From Saprospiraceae bacterium (GTDB lineage: Bacteria; Bacteroidota; Bacteroidia; Chitinophagales; Saprospiraceae), in assembly GCA_020848995.1 (NCBI GenBank), contig JADLHA010000027.1, positions 1 to 48,182 of the forward strand: a DNA stretch of 48,182 nt. The letters are read 5' to 3'. The translations under genes and the position numbers were made by a program. Below, piece by piece: positions 6,671-25,086 of the stretch. Numbering within the stretch: position 1 is the first letter of the stretch; the number at the start of each line of letters is the position of its first letter. The notes under the pieces are model-generated. The model was not told the origin of the DNA. It made no database searches and saw nothing but the letters and a program-made list of their open reading frames with translations.

Positions 6671-7417
6671 ATGGAAAAACTTCAGGGAAGGGTGGCCATC
6701 GTCACGGGAGGAAGCCGCGGGATCGGGGCTGCCATAGCCGAATGCCTGGCCAGCAACGGGGCCCATGTGGCCCTGACCTACATCAGTTCTCCGGACAAAG
6801 CCGCTGAAGTTGCCGGGCGCTGTTCCAGCCACGGCGTGCAGTGCCGCGCCTATGCTTCCAATGCCGCCGTTCATGCCGAGGCCGAGCAACTCGTCCAACA
6901 GGTCGTTGCCGATTTTGGGGGGCTCGACATCCTGGTCAACAACGCCGGAATTACCAAAGACAACCTCATTCTCCGGATGACCGAAGAACAATGGGACCAG
7001 GTCATCAATACCAACCTCAAGTCCTGTTTCAACCTCACCAAGTTCGCTGCCCGGCACATGATGCGCACGCGCAGCGGCTCAATCATCAACATCTCTTCGG
7101 TCGTCGGCGTTTTTGGCAACGCCGGACAGTCGAATTACTCAGCTTCCAAAGCGGGCATGATCGGTTTTACCAAGAGCATGGCCAAAGAACTGGCCTCGCG
7201 CAACATCCGGTGCAACGCCGTAGCGCCAGGCTTCATCGAAACTGAAATGACCCACGTTCTCGACGAGAAAACCCGGGATGCCTTCCTTCGCGCCATTCCG
7301 CTTGGCCGCCTGGCCCGCCCGTCGGAGGTATCCGAAGCGGTGCTGTTCCTGGCCAGTGATGCCTCGAGCTACATCACCGGGCAGGTGCTCAGCGTATGTG
7401 GTGGATTGAACATCTGA
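6671..7417 (+). CDS. fabG: 3-oxoacyl-[acyl-carrier-protein] reductase
   Basis: A 248-aa short-chain dehydrogenase matching FabG, which uses NADPH to reduce 3-oxoacyl-ACP in fatty acid synthesis. Seen: the Rossmann glycine motif TGGSRGIG at 12-19, NNAGITKDNLILRM at ~90-103, the catalytic set Ser142/143 (NISSVVG), Tyr156 and Lys160 (YSASK), and the C-terminal SSYITGQVLSVCGGLNI. The ITKDNLILRM and GFIETEMT stretches are typical of FabG rather than of generic SDRs. A TATCTTTG promoter sits immediately upstream, and a cluster of palindromes follows the stop. No acyl-carrier gene is adjacent, so the assignment rests on sequence motifs alone. Confidence 0.92.
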   Translation: MEKLQGRVAIVTGGSRGIGAAIAECLASNGAHVALTYISSPDKAAEVAGRCSSHGVQCRAYASNAAVHAEAEQLVQQVVADFGGLDILVNNAGITKDNLILRMTEEQWDQVINTNLKSCFNLTKFAARHMMRTRSGSIINISSVVGVFGNAGQSNYSASKAGMIGFTKSMAKELASRNIRCNAVAPGFIETEMTHVLDEKTRDAFLRAIPLGRLARPSEVSEAVLFLASDASSYITGQVLSVCGGLNI

Positions 7418-17759: not shown

Positions 17760-17812
17760 GGCGCAAGTTTGTAACTTGCGCCCTCCGCTGGCGCAAGTTT
17801 GTAACTTGCGCC
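17760..17812. repeat. two tandem REP-like palindromes next to a RAYT gene
   Basis: GGCGCAAGTT and AACTTGCGCC pair across TGT. The 23-nt palindrome occurs at 17760-17782 and 17790-17812 (30-bp period, each preceded by CGCT). A degenerate copy lies on the other side of the transposase at 18505-18520. Confidence 0.85.
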
Positions 17813-17835: not shown

Positions 17836-18414
17836 TTAAATATATCCAACCAAACTTGCCGGAATATCTAAAATTTCAACTTCTAATAGCCCTTTCTGCC
17901 CACAATAATTGCTTGCACTACTATATAAATAATGTTCAGCTTCTGAAACAATTCCAGATTTCACCGGATTATTATGTATATAGGCAAGCTTTTGAGCAAT
18001 AACCTTGGGGCTATAAATTTCAATAGGATGATTATCTTGTTGCCAGAACTGATATTCCTTATTATTAGAATTGTTTTGTCCAGCATCAGATAAAATTGCT
18101 AACATCCATTCCTTTCTACTTTCCTGTCGATTGTTTTTAATTGATTCCAGCAATTTCTTGGAAGTAAATTTCTTTAGATCTCTTAAAATTTCAGAATGTT
18201 TACCCTTCTTAATTGTTGAAAAAACAAGATGTACATGATTGGACATCAGGCACCATGCATGAATAATCATTCCTTTGTGATTCTGACAGTACTTTAAACT
18301 ATTTATAAATATTTCTTTGTATTCTTGTCTAGTAAATACGTCAATCCATTTAACCGTTGCAAAGCTCACAAAATATATTCCTTCTGGATCTAAAAATTTG
18401 TATTTGGTACTCAT
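17836..18414 (-). CDS. REP-associated tyrosine transposase (RAYT, IS200-like Y1 family)
   Basis: A 192-aa HUH single-strand transposase. Seen: the HUH pair His60/His62 in AWCLMSNHVHLVF, the N-terminal GIYFVSFATVKWIDVF, and the catalytic-tyrosine helix KLAYIHNNPVKSGIV with Tyr145, which is the standard Bacteroidota RAYT layout. Such enzymes cut and join single-stranded REP palindromes and are usually domesticated single-copy genes rather than active elements. The gene is clearly AT-richer than its left neighbours, and palindromes that fit its expected substrate lie on both sides. It looks intact. Confidence 0.92.
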   Translation of the reverse strand: MSTKYKFLDPEGIYFVSFATVKWIDVFTRQEYKEIFINSLKYCQNHKGMIIHAWCLMSNHVHLVFSTIKKGKHSEILRDLKKFTSKKLLESIKNNRQESRKEWMLAILSDAGQNNSNNKEYQFWQQDNHPIEIYSPKVIAQKLAYIHNNPVKSGIVSEAEHYLYSSASNYCGQKGLLEVEILDIPASLVGYI

Positions 18415-18715: not shown

Positions 18716-19192
18716 CTACGGCAACCCGTTAAAGCCATCTGAAAGCTTCATAACTTGCTCAAAATTGACAGCTTTCGCTCTATTTAGCTTTTCCTTAAAT
18801 CCTTCAAGTACAGCGCTTGAAAGCTCATTCCATTGCCTGTCATCGAGTAAAAACACATCTCCTTTAAAGTGCAAATGCGGAATTCTAAGTCCACCCGGAA
18901 ACGGGCGTGGCCAAAATGGACCCCTTTGAGGCTTTAGAATAGGAGGAATAGGAGCTTTCTGAGCCAGGCTCTCTGCACCAGGCTCATAAGAAGCACCCTC
19001 AAAGGATTCCTCGATCCCACCAGCTACAAAATCGCCCATTACATATTTTCCAGTGTTAAGCGGTTTCAACTTATGGTCTCTAACCATGATTTCGATCAAG
19101 TTCACATTTTTAAGCCAGAAATCCTCAAAAGGACCCCCGTAAACCCATCTCAAGAGACGCCTCGCGTCAAATTCAAATAAATTACTTGCCAT
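18716..19192 (-). CDS. unknown 158-aa protein downstream of a radical SAM maturase; candidate substrate or partner
   Basis: A soluble protein with no signal peptide or membrane segment and no family I recognise. Three parts are visible: an N-terminal helical segment rich in aromatic and basic residues (FDARRLLRWVYGGPFEDFWLKN, quoted in part), a middle segment ~80-108 unusually rich in Pro and aromatic residues (PIPPILKPQRGPFWPRPFPG then GLRIPHLHF) with a Gly-Gly at 100-101, and a C-terminal amphipathic helix (~118-150). It follows the radical SAM/SPASM gene on the same strand, separated by 104 nt that also hold a 23-codon ORF. Proximity suggests it is the modified substrate or a recognition/partner protein, but nothing in the sequence proves this. 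It reads toward the RAYT gene. Confidence 0.72.
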   Translation of the reverse strand: MASNLFEFDARRLLRWVYGGPFEDFWLKNVNLIEIMVRDHKLKPLNTGKYVMGDFVAGGIEESFEGASYEPGAESLAQKAPIPPILKPQRGPFWPRPFPGGLRIPHLHFKGDVFLLDDRQWNELSSAVLEGFKEKLNRAKAVNFEQVMKLSDGFNGLP

Positions 19193-19203
19193 TGTAAAAT
19201 GAT

Positions 19204-19275
19204 TTAATCGTTTGAAAATAATGTTAAAATCTCAACATCAGCTTCCAATTGAGGAGACCCTCTCATTGTGCTCAT
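19204..19275 (-). CDS. 23-aa ORF between the maturase and the 158-aa protein
   Basis: ATG-initiated frame reading MSTMRGSPQLEADVEILTLF then SND and a TAA, 11 nt before the ATG of the 158-aa protein. It is acidic and has no signal peptide. It could be a short RiPP precursor, a coupling ORF or chance; the only support is its tight fit in the operon gap. Confidence 0.25.
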   Translation of the reverse strand: MSTMRGSPQLEADVEILTLFSND

Positions 19276-19296
19276 AACAGGTACCCTATATTCAGA

Positions 19297-20409
19297 TTAT
19301 GTCAGACTCTTATTTAGCATAGCCCCATTTATGTGTTCGTAAAATGTCGGACCCAATTGTCTTTCCAGTTTCTCAAAAACCATGTACGCCGTGTTTATAG
19401 ACGCAATTTCGGAGGCGCACAGAAATGGACCCACCCGGTTATAAGACCCCGATGACATATAGTTTGAACACCCACACCAATTCATGCAATAATCTTTAAT
19501 TCCGCAATGAGTGCATTCAGCATTCATTTCAGCACCCTCGGCCTTGTGGCATAATGAGACCTGCTGAGTAAGTCCATCAAAAACATTCCCGATACAATGA
19601 TCATTTTTGCCGTCCCCTACCAATCTCTCACAAGGGTAAATGTCTCCCTGTGTCGTGAATGCAAATTCGGCTTGCCCCATCCTACACCTATCCAGCTTGC
19701 CATAGCCTTCGCGCAGGATAACAGCGATTTTGCTATCAATTAAACTGATAAAATGAGGCCGCTCCTCCAGGTAATATTTCATATATAAGCTGCCTATCTC
19801 TTCATAGATCTCTGGCAGCATCTTCACGTGTTCCGGCCTCCACTTTGCAGAAAAATCCGGATTCAAATAAATATGTCGTACCCCAATGGAAGCTAAATAC
19901 TCTACCGTTTCCGGCAGCTTATACAAAGTTTCTGGAGTATAAACTGCATTTACCATAATGCGCGAAAGAGCTTGCTTTGCCCTTAAAATATTCATTTCCA
20001 CTACTTCAGAACTTCCCTTTCCAGACAAAGTAAGCCTATACAAATCTTGAACGGGAGGTGGGCCGTCGCAACTTATCCCAAATCCTATGTCATTCTCTTT
20101 AATAAAAGTGGCCATTTCATCCGTAAAGATGGTTCCATTCGAAACGATGGTCATGCTTACCCGATCAGGGCAATACAGGGGATGATCCCTAATGATGCTA
20201 GTAATCGTTCTTATGAGATCGAATCTAAGCAACGGCTCTCCACCGAAAAAGCCAATGTTGATTTCCTCATCGCTCAATAAGGATTTTTTGTAGATAAAGT
20301 CAACAACCTTATGAGCGACCGACAAAGACATCGCTTCAGGCTTCTTATCGATATAACAATAGCTACATCTCAAATTGCACTGCTGCGTAACAAAAATGGT
20401 AAATTTCAT
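19297..20409 (-). CDS. radical SAM/SPASM peptide maturase
   Basis: A 370-aa cytosolic radical SAM enzyme. Seen: the SAM-cluster motif CNLRCSYC (Cys11, Cys15, Cys18), the SAM-contact GFFGGEPLLR at ~53-62, IVSNGT at 88-93, ISCDGPP at 112-118, and a C-terminal SPASM region with Cys at 242, 260, 272, 299, 302, 308, 312, 314 and 331, enough for two auxiliary Fe-S clusters. This is the architecture of sulfatase maturases and RiPP-modifying enzymes (sactipeptide, ranthipeptide, cyclophane, epimerase types). No sulfatase is encoded nearby, so peptide modification is more likely. There is no N-terminal RRE domain and no transporter or peptidase in the locus. A 19-codon ORF overlaps its start by ATGA, and a small HTH gene lies upstream on the same strand. 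Confidence 0.88.
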   Translation of the reverse strand: MKFTIFVTQQCNLRCSYCYIDKKPEAMSLSVAHKVVDFIYKKSLLSDEEINIGFFGGEPLLRFDLIRTITSIIRDHPLYCPDRVSMTIVSNGTIFTDEMATFIKENDIGFGISCDGPPPVQDLYRLTLSGKGSSEVVEMNILRAKQALSRIMVNAVYTPETLYKLPETVEYLASIGVRHIYLNPDFSAKWRPEHVKMLPEIYEEIGSLYMKYYLEERPHFISLIDSKIAVILREGYGKLDRCRMGQAEFAFTTQGDIYPCERLVGDGKNDHCIGNVFDGLTQQVSLCHKAEGAEMNAECTHCGIKDYCMNWCGCSNYMSSGSYNRVGPFLCASEIASINTAYMVFEKLERQLGPTFYEHINGAMLNKSLT

Positions 20410-20465
20410 AAAACAATTTTTACCTTCTCCTGCGATTCACTTAATACTGAATTCAGGAAACTCAT
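20406..20465 (-). CDS. 19-aa ORF overlapping the maturase start
   Basis: Reads MSFLNSVLSESQEKVKIVL and stops in an ATGA overlap with the maturase start codon. GGAGAAGG inside it would serve as the maturase ribosome-binding site. It is either a coupling leader or chance. Confidence 0.25.
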   Translation of the reverse strand: MSFLNSVLSESQEKVKIVL

Positions 20466-20581
20466 ACAAACAGACCAACCCCAAATTTAAATCAATGATT
20501 ATCGTCCTAATGGTTCAATTTGTCCCAATTCGTTTCATTGGGTCTCGATGTGTCCCATTAGCCTCAACCAGGGATTGGGGA

Positions 20582-20779
20582 TTAATTAATTCCTTCTCCC
20601 TTCTTTGCTTGCGCATCCATTCCCCGCAACACCTTGCGCAGATTTTCAGCTTCAGTCGGGGAGAGTAGGCGTCGCTCTATGTGTAACCCCAGACTTTTTA
20701 CGAGACGATAAAAAGTCGATTTTGATATTCCAAATTCCTGGAAGATCTGTTTCTTGCATAAAAATTTGTCATCCGGCAT
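20582..20779 (-). CDS. small helix-turn-helix protein
   Basis: A 65-aa basic protein. Residues ~8-35 (KKQIFQEFGISKSTFYRLVK, continuing SLGL) form a typical helix-turn-helix whose recognition helix is SKSTFYRLVKSL, followed by a short helical tail. This looks like a small transcription factor or excisionase-type DNA-binding protein. It precedes the radical SAM gene on the same strand by ~170 nt, a gap that holds a small hairpin (CCCAAT 20524-20529 with ATTGGG 20537-20542). It may regulate the locus, or it may belong to a mobile-element relic. Confidence 0.65.
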   Translation of the reverse strand: MPDDKFLCKKQIFQEFGISKSTFYRLVKSLGLHIERRLLSPTEAENLRKVLRGMDAQAKKGEGIN

Positions 20780-21231
20780 GATCTATATATTTTATAAAAC
20801 ATTATCGCAACTGTTCACTAAAACCAAACCATCTCAATATCACTCTAGACACTGAATGTCTTATTGTTACCTCTTCTCACCCTGTGATTCGCGTTTTGTC
20901 CCGTGGCCGATCATTTTGACCCTCACTCTTCAACTCACTGTAGCTAAATTTCCGGTAAACCGCCATCAAATGCACCAAATTAAATATTCTCATACTTCCA
21001 AATCTGTTTTTGAAAAGACGTTAAAGTTGTAAGATTAAAAATGGAATTCCACATTAGCCTTACAAGTTTTGATTATATTGTTGAATATGATAAAGAAGTC
21101 GATCACGGTTGATTGGTAATTTAATGATAGGATGGTATTCGCATATCGCAATTATTTACTTCCATCGTCAAGATAAAATCCATGCAAATTCATTTTATCC
21201 CCTTTTGTATTTAATACCTTTACTTGAAAGA
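20780..21231. other. AT-rich intergenic stretch, nothing identified
   Basis: No protein-like frame, RNA or clear repeat. It separates the HTH/radical SAM locus from the 3' end of the large secreted protein gene and presumably holds the HTH promoter, which I cannot place. Confidence 0.5.
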
Positions 21232-24200
21232 TTACAATCCCACCAATAGGGATAATTTCGAAACAAATTGACATTGCATCTTTTGCAGTAATTGTGGGTT
21301 GTCCAAATTACTATTGAGGTCTTTGAAAAATGGGTCAAAAGTTTCATTGGGAAAATACTGCCTGACAATTTCCCGCCAACCATCAAGATTCGCCTTTACG
21401 AAATCTGGATAATCTTTGTTTGTCCGCTTGACTTTTCCGTAGTCCTCAATAAACCGGTCAGAGTTGCTGATGGATTTCTGAACATTTTGTGCGCCCTTAA
21501 AAACCGGACTTCGAAGCATCAGATCCCTTTGCCAGCGAATTGTTTGCAATATGTCTGCTACATCTCCGTTTTGTTTATCCAAATAACTTAAATATGCAAG
21601 AAGCTTGCGGGAAAGATTAGCGTGTGTTATCTGTGTCTTTGACCAATTGCCTCCATTTATGCCCGTAATGAAATCATCAGCAGTTGTGGCAAGTTCAAAC
21701 GGATCCCCCCCTGTACCTCGCAGCCACTCTGTTATCAGTTTTGCAGATGACACACCATTTTTATCCAGAAATACGCGATAATCGGATTCAGAGCGAATGC
21801 TCTGAAGTAGTTCAAGGGCACGGCGGGCTTGTTCACTGGCCTTTTCAAGATTGTATCGTCTGGCAAGCAAGTCAAAGGCAAGCTCATGGTGTTCAAGATT
21901 TTGCCTTGCGAACTCCGTACTGCTCCCGCTTTGAACTCCTATTGTAAATCCGTTCACCGCCAATGTACCAACCATTTCCCTGAATATGACTGTTTGGGGA
22001 GACTTCATTCCTTCATCTGGGCGGCTTAATGATAGTTCCAACCAGCGATTCTCACAGGGCTTCATGCCGATTAAAATAAGGGTATCACCACGCATAATAT
22101 TCTTTCCCTGTCCTTTCCCGGCTCTAACCGACACCTTCGGTTTTAGCACATCCGCGCCCTTTTGAGGACTCACCAAAATCCGTATGTCCCTTGTATAAAA
22201 GGACGGATTGTGTATAATCGCGTAGCTCAAAATCGAAGCAGCCTCACCTCCTGGACCACCATTATATACATGAAGATTTCTCTGAGCCTTGTTATTATCA
22301 GAAATAACCAGCAGGTCAGTTCCATTTGACCATCCAGGGGCTCTTCCTAAAAGAGTTGGGTTCCCACTTGGGTCATCGAGTGTTGCAATTTCCACGGCCA
22401 TGCAAGGATGGTCAGCCGTCACGGCATTGGGGTCGACCAGGTCCCACTGAACTCCACTGGTCATTGTTAATGCAAGGTCAGTTGGACCAAAGTTCAGACT
22501 GCTAAATGATGACACCCCATTGATGAGTTGGAAATTGCTACCCGTGCCGAATTCTGACTTAAGGAAAAGAAGGTTGACGGTCTCTGCCAATCCGGTTGCT
22601 TTGCGGTGTACCCTCGCATACGCATAATTGTGGCCCATGCCGACCGGTTGGGGGTTTTGATTGGCTGGTCGGTCGGCTGAGGTAAAGGTGCCGGCCGTAT
22701 TATTTCTTCGCGTCCACACGTCGCTGTTGAACTGAAACCAGTAATTGATGTCAGAAGGCTCCTCTCCCTGATCGTGGCTGGATGAGCTGTTGGTCCAGTC
22801 ACGAACGTAGAAGTCCTGATCAATGTTCAAGGGGCTTATTCGATAAAAGAAAGGGTCGATGGATACATTGACGTTGGAGGTATTGGTCAAATTTCGCAAT
22901 TGGTTGGTGGCAGTGTTCACATTGCGCTGCCACAATGGCTGCACTGCAGGGAAATTGGCAGGGTTCGGATTGTTGCTCGCAGAAAAAACGCCACAGAAAT
23001 CCTTGCCAGAGGGCATGGCCGTGAGGCAGGCATAATCGCCAAGGTAGGGCAAAAATGTGGAAGCAGGGGTTCCATCAGGAAAGGTGTTCAATGTTGTCGT
23101 CGCTGTGGTAGCAAAGTCGTTGGTGGTGCGCTCGACGATTGTTTGCCAGTTTCCTGAGACCAAGCGCTGATAAGAAAAAGCCAGCTCTCCAAGGCAATTG
23201 ATGGCTAATGCCGGATTAATAGCATTGTCGATCCTTCGAAGATCATTTGCGGACCAATTTACACCGCCATTCGTTGAACTAATGACATGCAGGCTATAAT
23301 TATTTCCGCCTAAAGGGTTGTTATCAGTCCAAACAATATAAACTCTATTGCTATTATTAGGGTCAACTGCAATATTCAATCTTGTTCCTCCACGTTCCTG
23401 GCCAATTATACCAGACGTGGTTGCAAACGTGTATGTCAGTCCAGTACGTGCACGGTTACCGGCGATCAAATCTACAGGATCGTTCAGCGCAGTATAGGGA
23501 TTCGCTCCGAGCCCCCAATTGTCATCCCTGACTATTATTAGGTCCGAAACAATATTCCAAACATTTGCCCCTACCGAGGTAATAGTTGTGGCTCGCTCAT
23601 AAACTCCATAGATTATTCCCCCGGGATGGATAGCTACTCTAATTGGAGGTAAGTCCTGACTTGCTGTGGTCCTATTCTCAATAACAAGATTATTAAATGC
23701 CGGTATGGAAACTTGGCCAGCCATGGTTTGGTCAATCGCCGCGGTTTGCCCTCCCGCAGCTCCAAGGTCGTTGTTACCAACATAAACCCTGTCACTGCCT
23801 AAACCAGCACCTGATTGAACGGTGGCTGCTTGGACATAAGGCTGGTCAGGGCTATTCCGTGTTGACAATTGCTGCATTGCCGTTGCGCCGAGAAAATTAT
23901 TCGTTCTCAATATATCCATTGTTCGACTGGCACCAGCCGCCGTAGGGTGCCTAAGTATGCCAGTGTACAGCCAGTTCGATGTTGTACCAAACCTATTGGT
24001 TATATCACCAGTACCTGTTGTTGCGCTTTGGCTTGGCACAATAGAATTCAGAAGCCACGTTTGCCCACCATTTACTGAAACATAAATTGGGGCATTGGTG
24101 CTACCCACCAAATTTGGCGTAAACGCCGAGCCAACCATCTGATTAGGATTGGCAGGGTTAATGGCTAGGTTGGGTTCACTGTCTTGATTTGTTTCATTGC

Positions 24201-24300
24201 TTTGGGCATTGGGCATCATGTTCACAATGCGCACTTGTTGACTTTGCAACACCACTATGCCAATAAATAATGATAGGATTGTAATTAGGGTCGCTTTCAT
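21232..24300 (-). CDS. large secreted BNR/sialidase-like beta-propeller protein
   Basis: An exported protein of ~1,022 aa. It begins with a signal peptide (MKATLITILSLFIGIVVLQS then Q), giving a start at 24300 rather than the ATG at 24339, which lies before the upstream gene's stop spacing. Residues ~40-500 resemble the BNR/sialidase-type propeller: SEPNLAINPANPNQMVGS, Asp-box-like VSVNGGQTW and SSTNGGVNW, LNIAVDPNNSNRVYIVWTD. The remainder includes a helical C-terminal region (~800-1022). No T9SS sorting domain is seen, so the final location (periplasm or outside) is open. No sialidase catalytic set is evident, so a binding or structural role is as likely as hydrolysis. It follows the lipoprotein gene by 39 nt. 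The gene is AT-richer than the left part of the window. Confidence 0.75.
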   Translation of the reverse strand: MKATLITILSLFIGIVVLQSQQVRIVNMMPNAQSNETNQDSEPNLAINPANPNQMVGSAFTPNLVGSTNAPIYVSVNGGQTWLLNSIVPSQSATTGTGDITNRFGTTSNWLYTGILRHPTAAGASRTMDILRTNNFLGATAMQQLSTRNSPDQPYVQAATVQSGAGLGSDRVYVGNNDLGAAGGQTAAIDQTMAGQVSIPAFNNLVIENRTTASQDLPPIRVAIHPGGIIYGVYERATTITSVGANVWNIVSDLIIVRDDNWGLGANPYTALNDPVDLIAGNRARTGLTYTFATTSGIIGQERGGTRLNIAVDPNNSNRVYIVWTDNNPLGGNNYSLHVISSTNGGVNWSANDLRRIDNAINPALAINCLGELAFSYQRLVSGNWQTIVERTTNDFATTATTTLNTFPDGTPASTFLPYLGDYACLTAMPSGKDFCGVFSASNNPNPANFPAVQPLWQRNVNTATNQLRNLTNTSNVNVSIDPFFYRISPLNIDQDFYVRDWTNSSSSHDQGEEPSDINYWFQFNSDVWTRRNNTAGTFTSADRPANQNPQPVGMGHNYAYARVHRKATGLAETVNLLFLKSEFGTGSNFQLINGVSSFSSLNFGPTDLALTMTSGVQWDLVDPNAVTADHPCMAVEIATLDDPSGNPTLLGRAPGWSNGTDLLVISDNNKAQRNLHVYNGGPGGEAASILSYAIIHNPSFYTRDIRILVSPQKGADVLKPKVSVRAGKGQGKNIMRGDTLILIGMKPCENRWLELSLSRPDEGMKSPQTVIFREMVGTLAVNGFTIGVQSGSSTEFARQNLEHHELAFDLLARRYNLEKASEQARRALELLQSIRSESDYRVFLDKNGVSSAKLITEWLRGTGGDPFELATTADDFITGINGGNWSKTQITHANLSRKLLAYLSYLDKQNGDVADILQTIRWQRDLMLRSPVFKGAQNVQKSISNSDRFIEDYGKVKRTNKDYPDFVKANLDGWREIVRQYFPNETFDPFFKDLNSNLDNPQLLQKMQCQFVSKLSLLVGL

Positions 24301-24339
24301 TTCGAAAAATTTAGATGGTGAATATCCCATGTACTGCAC

Positions 24340-25086
24340 TTATTTCAACAAGGCACGAATTGTCTCCAATTGGTCCATTGGGAAGAAATATGCCTTTTCG
24401 GTCAGTTCGTAGCCTGCTCTATCTGCAGCAGGCTTCCGAAACAGAAAAATGCCCTCCTGACCAACTGATAATTTCGGGGCATCAAACCACATTACATCCC
24501 TGCTGGAGGAAAATCTCACGGGTAGGGTACGTTGGGCAGACTGGCCCTTCACGACAGAGAAAATCTCAATTGTCGCTGTAACCCATAATGGGTCATGTTC
24601 TGAGTTGAATTCCTGCTTACCAGGACCCTTGAGATCCGCTACTTTTCCGGCCACAACAAGCTCCGAAGATCTCAGTCTCTCTCGAATCAAGTCGTTTTGC
24701 CTGGATTTGATCCCATCCTGCACCGCCTTAGAGTTCGTCTCCTGTGCCTCACGACTGAATAATTCAATCACTGCAATGCTTTCACCAAACAACCAGCCAT
24801 TCGTGTAAAAGATTCTTTCTGTTAATGGCTTTAGTTTACGGACATCCTTTACAAGAACGGTTATACGCCTGCCCGTCCAGTCTGTGAATTCAGGAGGAAC
24901 ATCAAGCACTTCACTAACTTCGACCACAATGCAGTTTTCGGTTTCCGATATTTCAGGAATGGTGGCAGCGTTGATTTTTTCAATCATGCCACGAAAGATG
25001 AACTTAGCATCCAGTTCATTTTGCGGTGGCAGCGATGACGCACAGCTAACGTAAATGAATGCTACCAAAATTGCCATTTTATTCAT
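24340..25086 (-). CDS. lipoprotein of unknown function
   Basis: A 248-aa protein with a short N-terminal hydrophobic segment and lipobox VSCAS (Cys15), so probably lipidated. Two internal beta-rich halves look related: FIFRGMIEKINAA..VEVSEVLDVPPEF..RITVLVKDV and ELVVAGKVADLKG..VTATIEIFSVVKGQ..LPVRFSSS. This duplicated module resembles secretion-associated beta-sandwich domains in which a cost or flux phrase (GKV..) is followed by VVKG, but I cannot name it. It is the first gene of a two-gene operon with the large secreted protein, so they may act as a surface pair. Confidence 0.7.
   Translation of the reverse strand: MNKMAILVAFIYVSCASSLPPQNELDAKFIFRGMIEKINAATIPEISETENCIVVEVSEVLDVPPEFTDWTGRRITVLVKDVRKLKPLTERIFYTNGWLFGESIAVIELFSREAQETNSKAVQDGIKSRQNDLIRERLRSSELVVAGKVADLKGPGKQEFNSEHDPLWVTATIEIFSVVKGQSAQRTLPVRFSSSRDVMWFDAPKLSVGQEGIFLFRKPAADRAGYELTEKAYFFPMDQLETIRALLK

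Follow-up and report, generated by a model that had tools for sequence, protein, structure and literature searches.

The analysed DNA, hereafter the window, is a stretch of 48,182 nucleotides from a Saprospiraceae bacterium (contig JADLHA010000027.1). Four reading frames of 65, 370, 23 and 158 codons follow each other on its minus strand, at the positions claimed by a preliminary description of the locus. The 65-amino-acid protein (20582..20779), which shows a weak HTH_7 match below the cut-off, lies 5′ of the gene for protein B (19297..20409), a radical SAM/SPASM maturase of 370 amino acids identified from its reading frame and from Pfam and NCBIfam matches. A 23-codon frame from the ORF list (19204-19275) is located between B and protein A (18716..19192), a cysteine-free protein of 158 amino acids which is proposed, from its reading frame and its adjacency to B, as the substrate of the enzyme. 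The genes for A and B are separated by 104 bases. The A-B pair has no name in the curated models searched (NCBIfam release 20 and Pfam) and was not found in the literature searched.

The assignment of B as a SPASM maturase with a full CxxxCxxC motif, already made in the preliminary description, is confirmed by the Pfam Radical_SAM domain PF04055 (49 bits, cut-off 29.5) and by the presence of the SPASM cysteines. The CxxxCxxC motif (C11/C15/C18; residues 11-18, minus strand 20356..20379) is invariant in all 18 aligned B proteins and is expected to bind the Fe4S4 cluster which cleaves SAM. The SPASM region (minus strand 19417..19686) is defined by invariant cysteines and NCBIfam SPASM matches: residues 242, 260, 272, 299, 302, 308, 312, 314 and 331 are cysteines in 18/18 aligned proteins. 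The earlier count of nine cysteines in this region has to be corrected, as B contains ten from residue 242 on, of which nine are invariant. The additional C287 is not invariant, with a cysteine at this column in 7 of the 18 proteins.

At E up to 1, 79 NCBIfam models match B. The best one is PapB (NF047865), with 202.2 bits against a cut-off of 340, followed by a Nif11-peptide maturase (138 bits) and by QhpD (TIGR03906; 133.4 bits, cut-off 453). The sulfatase-maturase model reaches 91 bits against 349, and the models of cyclophane-forming enzymes all remain under their cut-offs (YhhB 76.1/445, GrrM/OscB 61.3/310 and AmcB 59.5/425 bits). Among PDB sequences, the best matches of the B profile are the SPASM maturase 5wgg (143 bits) and the anaerobic sulfatase maturases 4k36 and 4k37 (82 and 81 bits), all of them distant. 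Only 10 residues precede the CxxxCxxC motif and 39 follow the last SPASM cysteine. Since an RRE domain is larger than either of these stretches, B has no room for one at its ends. Furthermore, a PqqD search with E up to 1e-6 gave no match in the five carriers G000, G036, G056, G071 and G098 of a 99-genome sample.

Protein A has no significant relative in NCBIfam (release 20), Pfam, PADLOC or among PDB sequences. Its reading frame behaves as a gene, as homologues are present in other families. Two comparisons between copies from green sulfur bacteria give dN/dS values of 0.04 and 0.18. The nearest named relative found for the window is the Saprospiraceae MAG L023 (96% for A, 92% for B); here dN/dS of A is 0.45, a value which derives from only 13 changes and is less telling, and which does not indicate strong constraint. 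The 20 aligned A proteins comprise 126 to 160 amino acids with the starts chosen, and for these starts none of the 20 contains a cysteine. In eight rows of the alignment (L028, L031-L034, L036, L037 and L040) an inner-codon start was set by likeness; the L028 row begins right behind its methionine, and the longer readings of L028 and L036 carry cysteine upstream of the chosen start.

The homologues share a common layout. A helix around GIPADFW..KE..IG.FI stands at the N-terminus and is followed by a variable middle section; the C-terminal motif reads GG-x3-P-H-x-H-[YF]-[KNR]-G-[DE]-x-[YF]-x-L-x3-Q-W, and the copy of genome G036 diverges from it past H-x-H. In the window this motif covers residues 100-121 (GGLRIPHLHFKGDVFLLDDRQW; minus strand 18830..18895). 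The two glycines, both histidines and the glutamine are invariant in 20/20 proteins, the proline and the tryptophan are each present in 19. H106-x-H108 is the sole i/i+2 pair with both residues invariant in all 20 proteins, and the [YF]-[KNR] following H108 is not kept in G036, which reads H-V-G. Neither a hypervariable core nor a clear leader-core border is visible in the alignment.

AlphaFold2 models of A are modest (mean pLDDT 56.5 and 66.4), with values below 50 for the N-terminus and the middle. Residues 101-150 of the window protein reach means of 65 to 83 per ten-residue block. The model places strands at 106-109 and 112-115 and helices at 118-138 and 144-152, thus a predicted β-hairpin and two helices within residues 104-152 (minus strand 18737..18883), and the model of a green-sulfur copy has the same C-terminal elements. 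In both models the hairpin is formed by H-x-H together with the G-[DE]-x-[YF] behind it, and it leads into the long helix. No solved fold convincingly resembled the predicted model among the structures compared. In hhalign comparisons with 25 PqqD-type sequences, A gave probabilities of 0.1 to 0.2 percent (self-control 100 percent), and no Pfam PqqD match was obtained; at the sequence level A shows no likeness to RRE proteins of the PqqD type. NCBIfam and Pfam also show no likeness of A to sulfatases.

In order to relate the two families, 395 whole genomes of the phylum, a sample taken from a larger set, were searched with a single A sequence and a B profile. The B family is present in 21 genomes with 320-717 bits, some of the genes being cut by contig ends, and the next match has 148 bits, which leaves a clear score gap. 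These 21 genomes are found at E up to 1e-80; at 1e-35 there are 22, the extra one being G015, whose partial match (148 bits, positions 3-264 of 376) was dropped. The weakest matches kept are two contig-cut fragments of 320 and 342 bits and a nearly full-length one of 358 bits. The A search returned 21 genomes at E up to 0.01 and 19 after removal of G066 (E 0.003) and G219 (E 0.002 and 0.008), where the matches cover residues 20-105 only and where no B is found at E up to 1e-35.

All 19 kept A genomes fall within the 21 B genomes, with A adjoining B, so that none of the A matches kept occurs without B. Altogether, A adjoins B in 20 of the 21 B-positive genomes, that of the window included, and also in L023. 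In the remaining genome, G098, the contig begins inside B, so that the gene is truncated at base 1 and the A side is out of view. In G036 a divergent B is accompanied, one base away, by a divergent A which reads AGGIQTPHIH and keeps GG-x3-P-H-x-H. The A profile finds this copy at E 4.8e-4 and, used as query, it finds the A protein of G201 at E 2.8e-4. The co-occurrence which the preliminary description had put forward as a check on the link is therefore observed, and the link between A and B is well supported. Its mention of many Bacteroidota as the range of such a co-occurrence goes too far: in the 395-genome sample the pair is patchy and occurs in four genera of three families. In G225 (L041, around 7000-7400), A is split across two frames beside an intact B, which represents either a decayed gene or a sequence error.

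Most carriers belong to one family (f18). The FMO antenna protein family is matched in 19/19 of its carriers (18 over the cut-off) and in none of 14 control genomes, which identifies f18 as green sulfur bacteria; among the 21 carriers tested, only the genome of the window and G172 show no FMO match. Protein A is present in 18 of 86 f18 genomes, in one of 15 genomes of the family of G172 and in one of 98 of its order. Searches of plasmids, phages and viral contigs gave no match to A. The patchy occurrence of the pair suggests horizontal transfer combined with loss.

The two genes are adjacent in either of two orders, B-A (window, L023, G172 and G036) or A-B (all other loci read). In 11 of 12 other measured loci the gap comprises 1 to 91 bases; in the remaining one, L040, where the start of A is uncertain, the genes overlap. 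The neighbourhoods were compared by clustering non-overlapping ORFs of at least about 80 amino acids from 22 sources (the window and L023-L043, among which L042 and L043 are the dropped G219 matches). B is represented in 20 sources and A in 18, and no further family exceeds four. That A reaches 18 rather than 20 is due to the G221 copy (L039), which was lost to the overlap filter, and to the broken copy of G225. ABC-transporter ATPases occur in four of the 22 sources only, one of them typed with Pfam. The clustering revealed no conserved enzyme partner near the pair, and no peptidase common to the loci was seen either in the clustering or by Pfam on 17 neighbour proteins from 11 loci.

Distances between A proteins correlate with those between B proteins (Mantel test: r 0.91 with 17 pairs, r 0.67 with 11 thinned pairs, 0/9999 permutations in each case); this correlation is inflated by sequence relatedness, as shared ancestry alone adds to r. 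L030 and L035, where B is cut by the contig, L041, where A is broken, and L065 were left out of this test. In both trees the window and L023 group with G172, with support of 95/93 for B and 92/90 for A.

The 65-amino-acid protein of the window, previously described as an HTH protein, is kept in L023 with a dN/dS of 0.09, whereas its HTH_7 match of 18.8 bits stays below the cut-off of 23.8. By BLAST it is present only in the window and L023 among the 22 sources, and it is single-copy in the genome. It may be a local regulator and does not belong to the conserved cassette. The 23-codon frame is also open in the window and in L023 and, like the HTH gene, accompanies the pair in no source apart from these two. 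It could be imagined that this frame encodes the precursor and that A is an accessory protein. We consider this extremely improbable. The frame is situated in DNA which is about 99 to 100 percent identical between the two sources, and this makes its conservation uninformative since the surrounding stretch is about 99% identical throughout. The short gaps and the overlap in the other loci also speak against it. Furthermore, 872 small ORFs located within 2.5 kb of 13 pairs were clustered. No third small-ORF cluster was common to more than three of the 13 loci, and the earlier suggestion of a tiny ORF as substrate is thus not supported.

The best reading of the pair is that of a maturase with its dedicated substrate, which is a known category in the form of an undescribed two-gene cassette. 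Protein A is a small gene adjacent to a modifying enzyme across genomes (20/21), as is characteristic of a RiPP precursor, and we judge it likely that A and B form an enzyme-substrate pair in which A is modified by B. From these observations we infer the substrate role of A and, beyond it, the modification site, the type of bond, the product and its role. Co-occurrence alone does not separate a substrate from a partner protein, and most RiPP precursors are shorter than A and less evenly conserved.

Conservation along much of A would also suit a protein which acts as a partner of B, for example in recognition or as a chaperone with an RRE-like role, the true substrate being encoded elsewhere. 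A precedent is found in the PlpX/PlpY system, where, in the extracts of PMC11002830 used here, an RRE protein works alongside the SPASM enzyme. The comparison of A with the PqqD profile (0.1 to 0.2 percent), the lack of a Pfam PqqD match and the absence of another small ORF widely recurrent near the pair render this explanation rather unlikely. Somewhat more room has to be given to a small enzyme or metal-binding protein into which B installs a modified residue, as with quinohemoprotein amine dehydrogenase or sulfatases, so that the product is a working protein. Given that conservation extends over most of A and that the loci showed no peptidase in common, a modified mini-protein instead of a released peptide is a serious alternative, although we still hold it to be doubtful. 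It gains from the H-x-H and an acidic residue on the predicted hairpin and from QhpD being the third-best model for B (133 bits). The low mean pLDDT, with the N-terminus and the middle below 50, argues against it, as do the lack of a convincing fold relative and of a conserved enzyme partner nearby. This explanation overlaps with the enzyme-substrate reading, because a modified mini-protein would be a substrate of B as well.

Known systems help to delimit the chemistry. Of the NCBIfam models, PapB fits the window enzyme best, matches 18/18 B proteins and also ranks first for the divergent B of G036 (215.3 bits), and both PapB and B are radical SAM/SPASM maturases. This would favour a ranthipeptide-type thioether maturation as in PapA/PapB. 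However, the score of 202 bits is far under the cut-off of 340, and the 20 aligned A proteins (126 to 160 amino acids) have no cysteine, whereas the extracts of PMC9413430 report that PapB links cysteine to aspartate or glutamate. In addition, an RRE is the expected binding partner of the PapB leader (PMC9413430, in part), and B offers no space for such a domain. A maturation of the PapA/PapB type is thus very improbable. Assignment of A to the ranthipeptides or sactipeptides was likewise rejected, since no cysteine donor is present in 20/20 aligned proteins with the chosen starts.

The substrate of QhpD is cross-linked through cysteines, in contrast to A, which has none. The likeness to QhpD lies in its rank among the B models and in its action on a protein; the discovery of PapB itself came via grouping with QhpD, according to part of PMC11002830. 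A further comparison concerns the PlpX spliceotide system, in which a SPASM enzyme acts on a cysteine-free ribosomal precursor; the Nif11-peptide maturase model is second for B. PlpX differs in that it works with the RRE protein PlpY. Spliceases act on Xaa-Tyr-Gly (PMC11002830, in part), and Tyr-Gly is present in only 3 of 19 A proteins, so that a spliceotide assignment of A was rejected. Lastly, triceptides, which contain three-residue cyclophanes, are made by SPASM enzymes without the need for cysteine, and the H-x-H of A fits their i/i+2 spacing. His-Ala-Ala motifs are the substrates of the His-type triceptide enzyme ScaB and likewise of HaaB, as stated in the sections of PMC11002830 consulted. 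The motif of A appears to resemble this type, although the scores of B against the YhhB, GrrM/OscB and AmcB models are low.

Radical SAM enzymes act through a deoxyadenosyl radical. In SPASM enzymes, additional Fe-S centres accompany the radical SAM domain (PMC11002830, in part). In the enzyme-substrate interpretation, B would accordingly be predicted to bind SAM and further Fe-S clusters, to generate the 5′-deoxyadenosyl radical and to abstract a hydrogen atom from A. Because an RRE domain does not fit into B, the enzyme would recognise A by its own conserved ends, with the N-terminal helix and the hairpin-helix part at the C-terminus as the probable contacts. Residues 100-121 are the proposed site of both modification and recognition, and the modified place would most likely be the invariant GG-x4-H-x-H segment on the hairpin. 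A thioether within A is impossible as the protein contains no cysteine, and thioether and tyramine-splicing chemistry are disfavoured.

A C–C or C–N link on a histidine, from i to i+2, may serve as a first guess by comparison with the His-type cyclophanes. Among the known cysteine-free chemistries, a histidine-centred cross-link would best suit the invariant residues. Provided that A is the substrate, we give a histidine site a chance which is distinctly below even and still far from negligible. Alternatively, the nearly invariant Trp121 might be joined to a variable partner, and the conserved histidines, glycines and glutamine could instead serve folding, metal binding or recognition. The product would be a modified small protein kept in the cell, or a peptidase encoded elsewhere would cleave it.

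Orphan SPASM enzymes have repeatedly yielded new radical peptide chemistry, as described in part of PMC11002830. B is of interest in this respect as it comes with a one-to-one partner family which lacks a name in the models searched. A lacks cysteine and B cannot accommodate an RRE; the enzyme should therefore differ from PapB both in the bond it forms and in how it finds its substrate. Natural variants of the pair are available in at least four genera. As a speculative and, taken as a whole, improbable extension, B might convert the H-x-H hairpin of A into a new centre, cross-linked or metal-binding, on a cysteine-free, RRE-free, folded mini-protein scaffold; this would then be an intracellular cofactor or redox protein of green sulfur bacteria, encoded by a two-gene unit moved between lineages of the Bacteroidota.

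Several features were observed around individual loci. Next to the cassette, the minus strand of the window (21232-25086) encodes two adjacent proteins of 1035 and 248 amino acids, for which neither NCBIfam nor Pfam gives a match at E up to 1. On its other side, 301 bases from A, lies the gene for a REP-associated tyrosine transposase (17836-18414, minus strand; NF047646, 100 bits, cut-off 80). Two copies of the palindrome GGCGCAAGTTTGTAACTTGCGCC, the sole exact ones in the genome, are found beside it (17760-17812). The comparison of the window with L023 is mosaic between 18800 and 23000: the sequences agree at 98.5-100% in 18800-19800 and 20800-23000, and at 77-89% in 19800-20800, a part which comprises the HTH gene together with the first half of B. 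In the same comparison dS is 0.05 for A and 0.25 for B. From the sequence pattern, this mosaic looks like an allele exchange by recombination. In G036 (L065:6315-8987), a second radical SAM/SPASM gene precedes the pair and overlaps B by four bases, and this copy may represent a two-enzyme pathway. In G319 (L027:6699-7748), an ORF for an M48 peptidase begins 19 bases past B and could provide a processing peptidase in this genome.
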